DNA of 51,536 nucleotides, from assembly GCA_000993535.1 (NCBI GenBank), contig LBWG01000003.1, positions 1 to 51,536 on the forward strand, given 5' to 3'. The translations under genes were made by a program, and so were the position numbers. Each line of letters starts with the position of its first letter. Position 1 is the first letter of the stretch. The notes under the pieces were generated by a model. That model ran no database searches. It saw only the letters and a program-made list of their open reading frames with translations, and was not told the DNA's origin. Origin of the DNA: Candidatus Uhrbacteria bacterium GW2011_GWF2_39_13. Its GTDB lineage: Bacteria; Patescibacteriota; Patescibacteriia; UBA9934; GWF2-40-263. Below are positions 18,353-44,757 of the stretch, one piece after another.

Positions 18353-18480
18353 AGATCTTTCAAAAAATCATGATCTTACGGTTTACGGGCGCCCGTCGAT
18401 CCCACTCTCCCTATTCTAAATAGGGTTCGCGGGACTCGACAGCCCGTGCGCCGTAATCTCATTGATTTTTTGAAAGATCT
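18353..18480 (+). repeat. structured element copy 1 (hairpin with conserved GATCT / ATCTCAT internal loop)
   Basis: Perfect 18-bp outer stem AGATCTTTCAAAAAATCA/TGATTTTTTGAAAGATCT; nested stems TACGG/CCGTA, ACGGGC/GCCCGT, GTCGA/TCGAC, CCCTAT/ATAGGG. Confidence 0.85.
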
Positions 18481-27280: not shown

Positions 27281-29258
27281 TACCATAAAACAAAAAAAGA
27301 GACGGACACGTCTTGTCCGAATTATTTTTTTATTCTTTTTCTTTGCGATTCTTTTTTGGATCATGTCTCTTCTTGTTGCTTGCGCCTTTGTCGCTGTCCA
27401 AATACTCGATGCAAAAGAGGATATGCTTAAAGCAAAAGCGTTTGCTCAAGAGCTGGTTTTTGAAGACGCACAAACGTCTTTGCAAGAAGCTGTTGATTCG
27501 TTTGACTCTGCAAGAGGAGGTTTGATGGTGATTGATTCTGTGAAGTGGGTTCCTGTTGTTGGGCATTCTATTGAATTATTTGCCGATAGCATTGATTCCA
27601 GCCGGTTATTTATTGAAGCCTTGGTTCCTTTGTTTGAATTAGGAACTGATCTGATGCGTTTGGCAGGTCTTTCAAAGGAGGAACTCGCACAGATTCAAGA
27701 GGGGATTACTCCAGAGATTACCTTTGATGATCTTTCTTCAGAAACCAAACAAGCTATTTTGGCACGGTTAAGTGCTTCTGCGGAAGATTTAGATTTGCTT
27801 CTTGCGCGCATGGATATTGTAAATGAAGAAATTGTTTTGTTATCACAAAATGTCCAGATAGAACCCTTTCTCGTTTTTTTGGATCCAATAAAAAAACAGA
27901 TGGATCAAATGCGAGAATCACTTGGTATCCTTTCTATTGGGGCTCGTCTTCTGCCGGATTTTGCTGGATTAGATCAACCAACTACCTTGTTACTTCTTTT
28001 TTTGAATAATACAGAATTGAGACCTGCGGGAGGATTTATTGGATCTTACGGTGTTCTTGAAACATTTGCCGGAGACATTACTCAATTAGAAACAGCAGAT
28101 ACTTACACGCTTGATGATGCAGCCGCATCTGAGATTGTGCGAATACCTCCCGTGCCTTTACAAACTTACAATGCGACAACTAAATGGTTTTTTCGAGACG
28201 CAAACTGGTCGCCAGATTTTGCGGTTTCTTCACAACAAGCGATTTCTTTGTTTCTTGAAGAAGTAGGTTTTATTAAAGATCTCACAGACATCCCTTCAGC
28301 AGCCCTGTTTCATGGGGTGATTGGAGTCACACCAACATATCTGTCCGATCTTTTGGCTATAACAGGTCCAATCACGGTTGGATCTCAGACATTTACGAGT
28401 GAAAATATTATTGACACGCTCGAATATCAGGTTGAATTTGGATATCAGCTACAAGGGATCCCGGTTCATCAACGAAAAGCTCTTTTGGCTGATTTAGTGA
28501 ATGAGCTTAAAACACGCCTCTATCAACTCCCGTCTAAACGTTGGGAAGAGGTGCTTGCAATCACCCAAAAAGCATTCAAGGAGAAACAACTTCTTCTCTA
28601 TAGTGCAAACCCTCAAACACAAGAGATATTAGTGAATGTAGGCTGGGCTGGTTCTGTCTCTTCTTCTACGAGTGATACCCTTATGGTCGTGGATGCCAAC
28701 CTAGCCAGTTTAAAGTCGGATCCAGCCGTTGAACGTTCTACACAATATGAGGTGTTTAAAAATGCTTCAGATCAGTGGATTGGAAGAATCTCTATTGCCT
28801 ATAATCATAAAGGAACTTTTGACTGGAAAACCACTCGTTATCGAACGTATACTAGAGTCTATCTTCCTTTAGGGTCTAAGCTTATTCGATCTAGTGGAAG
28901 TTGGCTAAATGATAAAACACAAAATCCAACCAAGACTATAGGTTCCGTAGATCAGATGGATGAATTAGGCTTTACTTCTTTTGGTGTGTTTACCTCTGTA
29001 GAGCCGGGTGAACAAAATAATCTTGTATTCGAGTTTCAGCTTTCTCCTCAGGTTATTGAACAGATTGAAACAGGTCAGTATGATTTAACTGTTCTGAAAC
29101 AGGCTGGATCTCAAAATAATGCGTTGACGATTGACCTTGATTTTGATAAGAATGTGACACACGCGAGACCTTCAGAAGATGCTCAAGAATGGGGAGATGA
29201 TATCTATCGATTGAACACCATTTTAGATCACGACCTAGAAATTTACATCTCGCTGTGA
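27240..29258 (+). CDS. DUF4012-like membrane-anchored protein
   Basis: LLLFLNNTELRPAGGFIGSYGVLETFAGDI and WFFRDANWSPDFAVSSQQAISLF motifs. Confidence 0.8.
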   Translation: MSHTTNFLHSIETDTIKQKKRRTRLVRIIFLFFFFAILFWIMSLLVACAFVAVQILDAKEDMLKAKAFAQELVFEDAQTSLQEAVDSFDSARGGLMVIDSVKWVPVVGHSIELFADSIDSSRLFIEALVPLFELGTDLMRLAGLSKEELAQIQEGITPEITFDDLSSETKQAILARLSASAEDLDLLLARMDIVNEEIVLLSQNVQIEPFLVFLDPIKKQMDQMRESLGILSIGARLLPDFAGLDQPTTLLLLFLNNTELRPAGGFIGSYGVLETFAGDITQLETADTYTLDDAAASEIVRIPPVPLQTYNATTKWFFRDANWSPDFAVSSQQAISLFLEEVGFIKDLTDIPSAALFHGVIGVTPTYLSDLLAITGPITVGSQTFTSENIIDTLEYQVEFGYQLQGIPVHQRKALLADLVNELKTRLYQLPSKRWEEVLAITQKAFKEKQLLLYSANPQTQEILVNVGWAGSVSSSTSDTLMVVDANLASLKSDPAVERSTQYEVFKNASDQWIGRISIAYNHKGTFDWKTTRYRTYTRVYLPLGSKLIRSSGSWLNDKTQNPTKTIGSVDQMDELGFTSFGVFTSVEPGEQNNLVFEFQLSPQVIEQIETGQYDLTVLKQAGSQNNALTIDLDFDKNVTHARPSEDAQEWGDDIYRLNTILDHDLEIYISL

Positions 29259-29384
29259 TGATGACGAAACTCGCGATCTTTGCGTTCACGGGCGCCCGTC
29301 GACCCCGCTCTCCCTACGGTGAGTAGGGTTCGCGGGGCTCGACAGCCCGTTCACGCAAATCTCATCGAGTTTCCTCATTCATCA
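29255..29384 (+). repeat. structured element copy 2
   Basis: GTGATGATGACGAAACTCG/CGAGTTTCCTCATTCATCAC outer stem (one bulge, one mismatch); same nested architecture and loop sequences as copy 1. Confidence 0.85.
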
Positions 29385-29397
29385 CTTTCTGTAGCCT

Positions 29398-30402: not shown

Positions 30403-30427
30403 CAGTATTTTTTAAATTCTTTTTATA

Positions 30428-30512
30428 CCCTGAGCTTGTCGAAGGGGCAAAGTATTCTTTACTGTTCACCCTTCGACTCCGCTCGCGTTGGTCGCTTCGC
30501 TCAGGGAATATT
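30428..30512. repeat. REP-like composite palindrome (CCCTGAGC...CGAAGGGG / CCCTTCGACTCCGCTC...GCTCAGGGAATATT)
   Basis: Family recurs at 31719, 32948/37017 and 37139. Confidence 0.8.
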
Positions 30513-30520
30513 CACATTTT

Positions 30521-31684
30521 ATGGATTCAGAATTAAATTTTCTTGATTCAAAAGCTTCTGTCGTATATGGCATTGATGCTCTTTCTGCAAATATGCAGAA
30601 ACGAACAGGTGTAGAAAATTACAGTCGCTCTTTGATTCAAGCATTAAAAAACCACCCGCTTCAAAACGATGAACGGGTGGTTTTGTATTCACTTTTTCCA
30701 CTTGACGAGGAATTAAACAAGTTCCCTCAAGGATGGTCTTCGAAGATTCTTTCTTGGTTTTTAAAACGCGGATGGATGCCTGTGCGGATGAGTTGGGAAA
30801 TGATCCGTCATGCTCCAACGGTTCTTTTTGTCCCCGGTCAGGCTCTGCCTTTTTTTTGTCCGCGTAAAGTTCTTACCACTATCCATGACATTGCCTTTGT
30901 TCGCCGTCCTGATCTGTACCAACCTGCTGTACGAAAGCGCCTCATGAGAATGACAAAGCAAGCCTTAAAAAAAGCTACGAGACTTTTGGTTCCTTCACAA
31001 ACAACCAGAGATGACTTGATTGAACTTTACAAGGTTAATCCAGATCGGGTGGTTGTGGTGCCGTTGGCAGCAGATACAACATTGTATCGTCCCTACACCC
31101 AACAAGAGGCTGCACCTGTGTTGCAGAAGTATCGGCTTGGAACCAACTTTTTTCTTGTTGTTGGCCGATTAGAAAAAAAGAAAAATATCACCACACTTAT
31201 TCGAGCTTTTGAATTGTTTAAAAGTCGTCGTGGTATCGGGGATCCATTTGAGCTTGTCTTTGCCGGAGAGCCGGGTTATGGCTATGAAAAAATGAAACCC
31301 TATTTTGATCTTTCCTCTGTTAAATCTCATATTCGCCAGCTTGGGTTTATTCCAGATGAGGATTTGGCTCCTTTGATGAGTCAGGCAACAGCTTATCTTT
31401 TTCCCTCTTGGTACGAAGGATTCGGCATTCCAAGTCTTGAAGCCATGGCCTCTGGAACTCCTGTTCTAGCTTCCTCGATAGCTGTTCATAAAGAAGTGAT
31501 TGTTGATGCAGGAATGTTTATTCCACCGGGAGAATCAGAAGCATGGGCACAAGCCATGGCTGAGATTGTTCATAATACCGTTTTAAGAACGGATTTGATT
31601 ACCAAGGGAAAAGAACGTGTTAAAAATTTTTCTTGGGAAAAAACCGCACAGCAAACATGGGATGTTTTGAGAAATTTGGTATAA
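30521..31684 (+). CDS. GT4-family glycosyltransferase (GT1/GT4 fold)
   Basis: TTIHDIAFVRRPDLY, VVVVPLAADTTLYRP, FLVVGRLEKKKNITTLIRAFEL, ATAYLFPSWYEGFGIPSLEAMASGTPVLAS. Confidence 0.9.
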   Translation: MDSELNFLDSKASVVYGIDALSANMQKRTGVENYSRSLIQALKNHPLQNDERVVLYSLFPLDEELNKFPQGWSSKILSWFLKRGWMPVRMSWEMIRHAPTVLFVPGQALPFFCPRKVLTTIHDIAFVRRPDLYQPAVRKRLMRMTKQALKKATRLLVPSQTTRDDLIELYKVNPDRVVVVPLAADTTLYRPYTQQEAAPVLQKYRLGTNFFLVVGRLEKKKNITTLIRAFELFKSRRGIGDPFELVFAGEPGYGYEKMKPYFDLSSVKSHIRQLGFIPDEDLAPLMSQATAYLFPSWYEGFGIPSLEAMASGTPVLASSIAVHKEVIVDAGMFIPPGESEAWAQAMAEIVHNTVLRTDLITKGKERVKNFSWEKTAQQTWDVLRNLV

Positions 31685-31718
31685 TAAAGACGTATTAGCT
31701 TGTAGCAAGTTTCTCTCA

Positions 31719-31816
31719 ATATTCCCTGAGCGAGGAGTCATCGACGAGTCGAAGGGCACAGATACGCTTAACCCTTCGACTCCGGTTTGTCGAACAAACC
31801 TCCGCTCAGGGAATAT
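31719..31816. repeat. REP-like composite palindrome
   Basis: ATATTCCCTGAGCG...TCGAAGGG-loop-CCCTTCGA...CGCTCAGGGAATAT. Confidence 0.85.
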
Positions 31817-31857
31817 ATAGTGTGATAGTACTTAAATTAAACTCCATGATGAATTCT

Positions 31858-32913: not shown

Positions 32914-32947
32914 TCCATATTTGTTGTAGAGGTTAGACAAAAACCCC

Positions 32948-32993
32948 ACATCATATTCCCTGAGCGAGGAGTCCTCGACGAGTCGAAGGGGCA
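32948..32993 (+). repeat. half REP-like element, left flank of GC-rich island
   Basis: ACATCATATTCCCTGAGCGAGGAGTCCTCGACGAGTCGAAGGGGCA. Confidence 0.8.
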
Positions 32994-33010
32994 AAAAATT
33001 TGGTTCAAAC

Positions 33011-37069: not shown

Positions 37070-37138
37070 TTTATGTACTGTTCGTACATCAATACTGGCT
37101 CAGTGAATATAGTGTTTTATGATTCATACAGCAGATAG

Positions 37139-37230
37139 CTCTTCGACTCGTCGAGGACTCCTCGCTCAGGGAATATTTATTTTTATATTCCCTGAGCACA
37201 GGCTCGTTCGACGAGCCGGAGTCGAAGGGT
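37139..37230. repeat. REP-like composite element
   Basis: CTTCGACTCGTCGAGGACTCCTCGCTCAGGGAATATTTATTTTTATATTCCCTGAGCACAGGCTCGTTCGACGAGCCGGAGTCGAAGGG. Confidence 0.8.
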
Positions 37231-37259
37231 TCATTGTCGTGGTATAATCTCTAAAGTCT

Positions 37260-44558: not shown

Positions 44559-44634
44559 GCCGAGATAGCTCAGTTGGTAGAGCAACGGTTTTGTAAACCG
44601 TAGGTCACGGGTTCGAGTCCCGTTCTCGGCTCCA
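44559..44634 (+). tRNA. tRNA-Thr (TGT)
   Basis: Anticodon loop TTTGTAA, encoded CCA. Confidence 0.95.
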
Positions 44635-44757
44635 GATTGTTTCAAAAATCGCGATCTTTCGTTTCATGGGGCCCCATTGGCTCGTCACCGTATCTGAATA
44701 CGGCTCTGTCGCCAATCACCCCATTCAACGAAATCTCATCGATTTTTGAAACAATCT
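44634..44757 (+). repeat. structured element copy 3, abutting the tRNA-Thr 3' end
   Basis: Perfect 18-bp stem AGATTGTTTCAAAAATCG/CGATTTTTGAAACAATCT; TTCGTT/AACGAA, ATGGGG/CCCCAT, ATTGGC/GCCAAT, CCGTAT/ATACGG. Confidence 0.85.

Follow-up and report, generated by a model that had tools for sequence, protein, structure and literature searches.

The ERIC and Correia repeats of bacteria are short imperfect palindromes, mostly intergenic, with tens of copies per genome (PMC10969869). REPs (PMC3733652) are 20-40 bp long and are tagged at one end by GTAG/CGTC. For the double-hairpin elements of Allomyces mitochondria, no flanking duplication was reported and an RNA route was proposed (PMC2800124). 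Some retrotransposons of Dictyostelium and yeast, whose genomes are compact, choose sites beside tRNA genes, in one type about 4 bp upstream (PMC5006619). Here, we describe an element family of Candidatus Uhrbacteria that shares features with these systems and differs from all of them. We consider it, with a probability of roughly 0.7, to be a family of non-autonomous mobile DNA hairpins moved by a trans-acting factor that recognises the folded hairpin.

Three copies lie in the window, that is, in the whole stretch of 51,536 nt that was analysed (table 1). The earlier note, made from the letters alone, had described them as plus-strand elements with particular stems and loops, and all of this was confirmed at the places given there. 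Each copy forms one long hairpin, and DNA folding parameters returned the same fold as RNA parameters. The RNA minimum free energies were -69.4, -75.9, and -53.2 kcal/mol for copies 1, 2, and 3, with fold z-scores of -11.4, -9.9, and -9.0, respectively, and 0 of 200 shuffles folded as well. In an Rfam search of the window, only tRNAs exceeded the gathering threshold and the best subthreshold matches over copies 1 and 3 were at chance level; the elements belong to no Rfam family. A literature search that left out most subscription papers found no published description of the element.

Table 1. Positions of the three window copies, their parts, and the tRNA gene next to copy 3
Feature	Position	Strand	Context
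Element copy 1	18353..18480	+	Upstream of ribosomal protein L10 gene (18492; Pfam Ribosomal_L10)
Copy 1, 5' outer arm AGATCTTTCAAAAAATC	18353..18369	+	
Copy 1, 5' invariant motif TGATCTT (family consensus CGATCTT)	18371..18377	+	
Copy 1, 3' invariant motif AATCTCAT	18455..18462	+	
Copy 1, 3' outer arm TGATTTTTTGAAAGATCT	18463..18480	+	
Element copy 2	29255..29386	+	Between DUF4012 gene stop codon and mreB (29398); right end 11 bp before mreB
Copy 2, 5' outer arm GTGATGATGACGAAACTCG	29255..29273	+	DUF4012 stop TGA (29256-29258) falls within this arm
Copy 2, 3' outer arm CGAGTTTCCTCATTCATCAC	29366..29385	+	
Element copy 3	44634..44757	+	Directly 3' of encoded CCA of tRNA-Thr; first base is the A of CCA
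Copy 3, 5' outer arm AGATTGTTTCAAAAATCG	44634..44651	+	
Copy 3, 3' outer arm CGATTTTTGAAACAATCT	44740..44757	+	
tRNA-Thr gene with encoded CCA	44559..44634	+	Insertion landmark of copy 3; Rfam tRNA match 44559-44631, 77.7 bits; 3' end placed at CCA by ARAGORN

From the outside inward, the element consists of an 18-nt outer arm, CG pairs, a C/AT loop, a GA:TC clamp, a TC/TC 2x2 loop, and a stem of about 7 bp of free sequence. In most copies a second TC/TC loop comes next. A GGGC or GGGG stem then follows, and most copies carry a 4-nt bulge complementary to that stem (GCCC or CCCC, with ACCC also common); the innermost part is a hairpin of variable length. The size is about 130 bp (range 73-235 bp), and the ends are sharp, GAGA.. 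on the left and ..TCTC on the right. The mismatched internal loops (C/AT and TC/TC) are invariant in about 130 of 181 distinct copies. The outer stem differs between copies while still pairing, as noted before, but it follows a consensus, GAGAYYTYTNCAAAACTCG, and is not free throughout. Several variants were also observed. An extra GC-rich arm of about 33 nt (CGACCCGCCCGAACGAACGTTCGACGGTCGGGCGGGC) is present in a subset of copies (L008, L010, L011, L012, and L014). Within the sister-species genome G005, the second TC/TC loop is nearly or fully paired (TTGACGTTTTCGGGC/GCCCGAAAACGTCAA) in a subfamily at C15:63667, C10:38390, and C22:4229, from which this loop seems to be dispensable, and two larger variants (C15:86391-86625 and C2:3488-3722) contain nested palindromes (CTTCGATAAACTCAG...CTGAGTTTATCGAAGGG; GCCTCCGCCAGAGGCGGATCTGCC), looking as though the tip of the hairpin had received insertions of other repeats.

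Searches by BLASTN and with a ten-copy covariance model turned up additional homologues that carry compensatory changes. The element is not limited to three copies: all three are real, and the assembly that contains the window (G000, 68.6% complete) holds about 26 distinct copies, in both orientations, so that the uniform plus strand noted before is true of the window only. The most copies of any genome were found in G005 (at least 73 distinct copies, found in 1.05 Mb; 96% complete). Matches occurred in 29 of the 39 sampled genomes, including all six members of the genus, the majority of the family, and some of the order, and in 12 of 292 genomes of a wider sample of the class, two of them outside the order. 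Nearly all named records with matches were Candidatus Uhrbacteria, and no element was found in the viral contigs, phages, and plasmids searched. Spread beyond Uhrbacteria was considered and rejected, because the sequences matched in Opitutae, Desulfobacteraceae, and Geothrix lack the fold of the element. One further element-bearing contig (L248, MHBF01000199.1), filed as Lentisphaerae GWF2_44_16, matches Uhrbacteria DNA at 78% over 1.9 kb and is probably mis-binned Uhrbacteria DNA. A second, seemingly unrelated palindromic repeat family also resides in the window (31715-31822, 37135-37240, 30415-30530, and 32940-33005; e.g., TTCGACTCGTCGAGGACTCCTCGCTCAGGGAATAT), with strong folds at 31715 and 37135 and further copies elsewhere in G000 and G005.

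The behavior of the stems was then informative about the level at which pairing is maintained. In an alignment of ten copies, both sides had changed in 29 of 50 pairs, with almost no one-sided changes; doubly changed cells numbered 90, compared with 30 +/- 4 in shuffles and 25 or fewer in slid controls, and the covariation score was 0.488 (0.162 in shuffles). Together with the z-scores of -9 to -11, these values uphold the original description of a covarying structured element. Among 181 distinct elements, the 18-bp outer arms were 94.0% Watson-Crick, and at arm position -9 in G000 and G005 the bases A, C, G, and T each accounted for about 25%, yet 90% of copies were paired there. A selected RNA read in the given orientation should prefer GU over AC. 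However, the arm mismatches comprised 35 GT, 71 AC, and 90 others, AC being twice as common as GT (p = 0.0006), which is a strand asymmetry, and the GU share of paired cells was 1.8% in the element against 12.0% in RNase P RNA from the six genomes of the genus. Since wobble is not favored, unlike in RNase P, the pairing departs from that of ordinary RNAs and points to the DNA level; covariation is present without the wobble tolerance that characterizes a structured RNA. Of the possibilities raised earlier, a functional RNA transcribed from the given strand is therefore disfavored, and the pairing agrees better with selection on folding as DNA or with one arm being copied from the other. The AC excess equals GU on the opposite strand, which leaves room for weak RNA selection on that strand.

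Template switching can create and maintain hairpins (PMC8794818), and an explanation by mutation only would hold that switching during replication makes and perfects quasi-palindromes that have neither function nor dedicated mobility. The many paired changes at orthologous sites agree with it: the 11 sites at which G000 and G005 each carry an element showed 39 double Watson-Crick arm changes against 14 one-sided ones, and the five most similar pairs 8 against 5, with the limits that part of these 11 sites may reflect separate insertion events and that the pair at G000 C9:36541 is poorly registered. We regard this explanation as very improbable, given that the copies are homologous members of a single family, most of them with invariant mismatched loops that perfect correction would erase, and that they insert as a unit.

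This last point was derived from mapping the flanks of G005 and G000 elements onto the other genome. At 11 clean empty sites, the flanks meet within -6 to +3 bp with no more than 5 bases unaligned, and the inserted DNA includes both outer-stem arms, the whole element being about 130-235 bp. The element is gained or lost precisely as a unit. Consequently, the earlier view of a "selected structure rather than copied DNA" is half right: the structure is real, and it is also copied, the whole element being absent at clean empty sites. The possibility that the outer stem was a palindrome pre-existing at the target was rejected, as both arms are missing at most empty sites. A target duplication of fixed length was not found, the overlap at empty sites being 0-6 bp with a weak excess at 3-4 bp (z ~4). 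For the 73-bp case at G005 C2:11054, the empty site retains GAGATCTC and looks like a deletion between palindromic AGATCT arms. With regard to the window copies, G001 and G004 lack copy 2 and have a gap of about 25 bp ahead of mreB; the corresponding gap of G005 holds a different element in reverse orientation, and a 95% identical relative of copy 2 lies in another context at G005 C17:926. The orthologous sites of copies 1 and 3 are both occupied in G005, the former at C15:58106-58236 and the latter by a 235-bp variant.

The placement of the elements was strongly polar. The left end was -2 to 12 bp from a tRNA gene in 39 of 181 distinct elements; 30 of these lay on the 5' side, antisense and mostly 2-7 bp away, and 9 on the 3' side, sense and mostly directly after CCA. 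In contrast, the right end nearest to any tRNA gene among the 181 elements was 50 bp away. In G000 and G005, 25 of 99 elements were within 8 bp of a tRNA gene (several of these sites are orthologous between the two genomes, and the independent events there were estimated at about 19), whereas only 1.6% of random intergenic points were within 40 bp. The tRNA-end placement was repeated in an independent set from other species, genera, and families, including distant families with few copies. A probable exception to the polarity, judged from coordinates, is G004 C41:504-634 (-), whose right end is about 8 bp after tRNA-Thr. Other copies fill their spacers tightly, starting at stop codons and ending 9-25 nt ahead of the following start codon; this fit to stop codons and ribosome-binding sites may be explained by selection in short spacers. 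A sense bias was seen in operons (30 vs 16), and the replication-strand bias was absent at tRNAs (9 vs 15) and weak elsewhere (43 vs 28). The constant orientation of the elements on either side of tRNA genes points to an insertion mechanism that, to our knowledge, is known from no bacterial repeat, here in the CPR, a lineage with very small genomes.

Two other explanations bear on this placement. A structured RNA acting in cis on tRNA or mRNA transcripts, for example a processing hairpin related to RNase III or RNase P that spread by duplication and was kept where useful, would account for the strong conserved fold, the exact position at tRNA ends even in distant families with few copies, and the operon sense bias; the excess of AC over GT could be its wobble on the opposite strand. 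Nevertheless, it would have to be transcribed from one strand on the 5' side of tRNAs and from the other on the 3' side, the wobble share is far under that of RNase P, and presence is patchy, with clean empty orthologous spacers, and we think such an RNA unlikely. In the other explanation, a reverse transcriptase would link the element to the CCA at the 3' end of an RNA and, at the RNA's 5' end, to the end of the cDNA. The geometry at both tRNA sides would fit end-to-end template jumping, and the absence of target duplication agrees with it; however, RVT_1 (PF00078) had no match in G005, with its high completeness, or in G032 and did not track copy number, and how the chimera reaches its own locus is left unexplained, making retrotransposition very improbable. 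The Dictyostelium and yeast retrotransposons that insert beside tRNA genes carry the genes for their own proteins and are directed to the Pol III machinery, whereas the present element is noncoding, bacterial, and uses both tRNA ends. The mitochondrial mobile hairpins (Allomyces, sponge RHE), compared by description rather than by sequence, are likewise small and mobile, and those of Allomyces share the absence of flanking duplication; the likeness is one of workings only, as our element is bacterial, about 130 bp long, and has fixed internal loops and tRNA-end polarity.

No mobiliser could be assigned from gene content. Across the sampled genomes, neither Y1/RAYT (PF01797) nor the DDE_1 and rve families tracked element copy number: G032 and G018, with 13 and 14 matches (counts that include double hits from both strands), lack Y1, DDE_1, and rve, G022 also bears elements without Y1, and G017 has 8 Y1 matches and no element. 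The tyrosine recombinase is nearly universal, often in one copy, and gives no information. A scan for lone end motifs, which covered 796 kb of G000 as well as 1.05 Mb of G005, gave no recognisable autonomous copy among the matches listed. The single-stranded DNA hairpin for a recombinase that had been offered as an alternative fits better than an RNA, and no enzyme was found for it. As for integron attC sites, no obvious RYYYAAC/GTTRRRY core was visible by eye in the consensus ends GAGAYYTYTNCAAAACTCG.

These results also bear on whether the family is an ordinary MITE or a palindromic repeat like ERIC, Correia, or REP, mobilised by a DDE or Y1/RAYT transposase of the host and sited where purifying selection allows. 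The elements are short, noncoding, and intergenic, with terminal inverted repeats, high copy number, and variability between sister species, and starts at stop codons and ends 9-25 nt before start codons are what selection in compact spacers would produce. On the other hand, the termini change in sequence yet still pair, insertion leaves no target duplication of constant length, none of Y1, DDE_1, and rve tracks copy number, and selection alone does not yield 39 versus 0 at tRNAs. Compared with ERIC and Correia, moreover, no parent insertion sequence was recognised among the matches listed, and the element sits at tRNA ends in one polarity, whereas the text of the review (PMC10969869) makes no mention of tRNA. 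The likeness to REP/BIME and RAYT lies in being palindromic, extragenic, and thought to act as folded DNA; the element differs in its length of about 130 bp, its nonconserved flank, and the PF01797 distribution. In its workings the family resembles a MITE; an ordinary MITE is possible but doubtful.

Accordingly weighted, a mobile hairpin recognised in folded form remains our preferred reading. The element would move as a folded single strand, and the trans-acting factor would recognise the fixed internal loops. The left end may be joined a few nucleotides 3' of a foot resembling an acceptor stem, a rule that covers both the class after CCA and the antisense class in 5' leaders and leaves non-tRNA copies unexplained; a hairpin-foot target was not generally supported for the latter, and the rule may hold for tRNAs only. 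Two processes may together preserve arm complementarity: movement restricted to copies that fold well, and correction of one arm on the template of the other through template switching within the hairpin. As a more tentative version, the hairpin may be mobile without a dedicated transposase, housekeeping machinery acting on folded tRNA gene ends while each arm serves as template for the other, which would let the terminal repeats drift and always match.

Covariation is usually read as proof of a functional RNA, and here it is strong, with very few wobble pairs, in what behaves as mobile DNA. The element family therefore offers a natural test between template switching and DNA folding as the keeper of paired stems.
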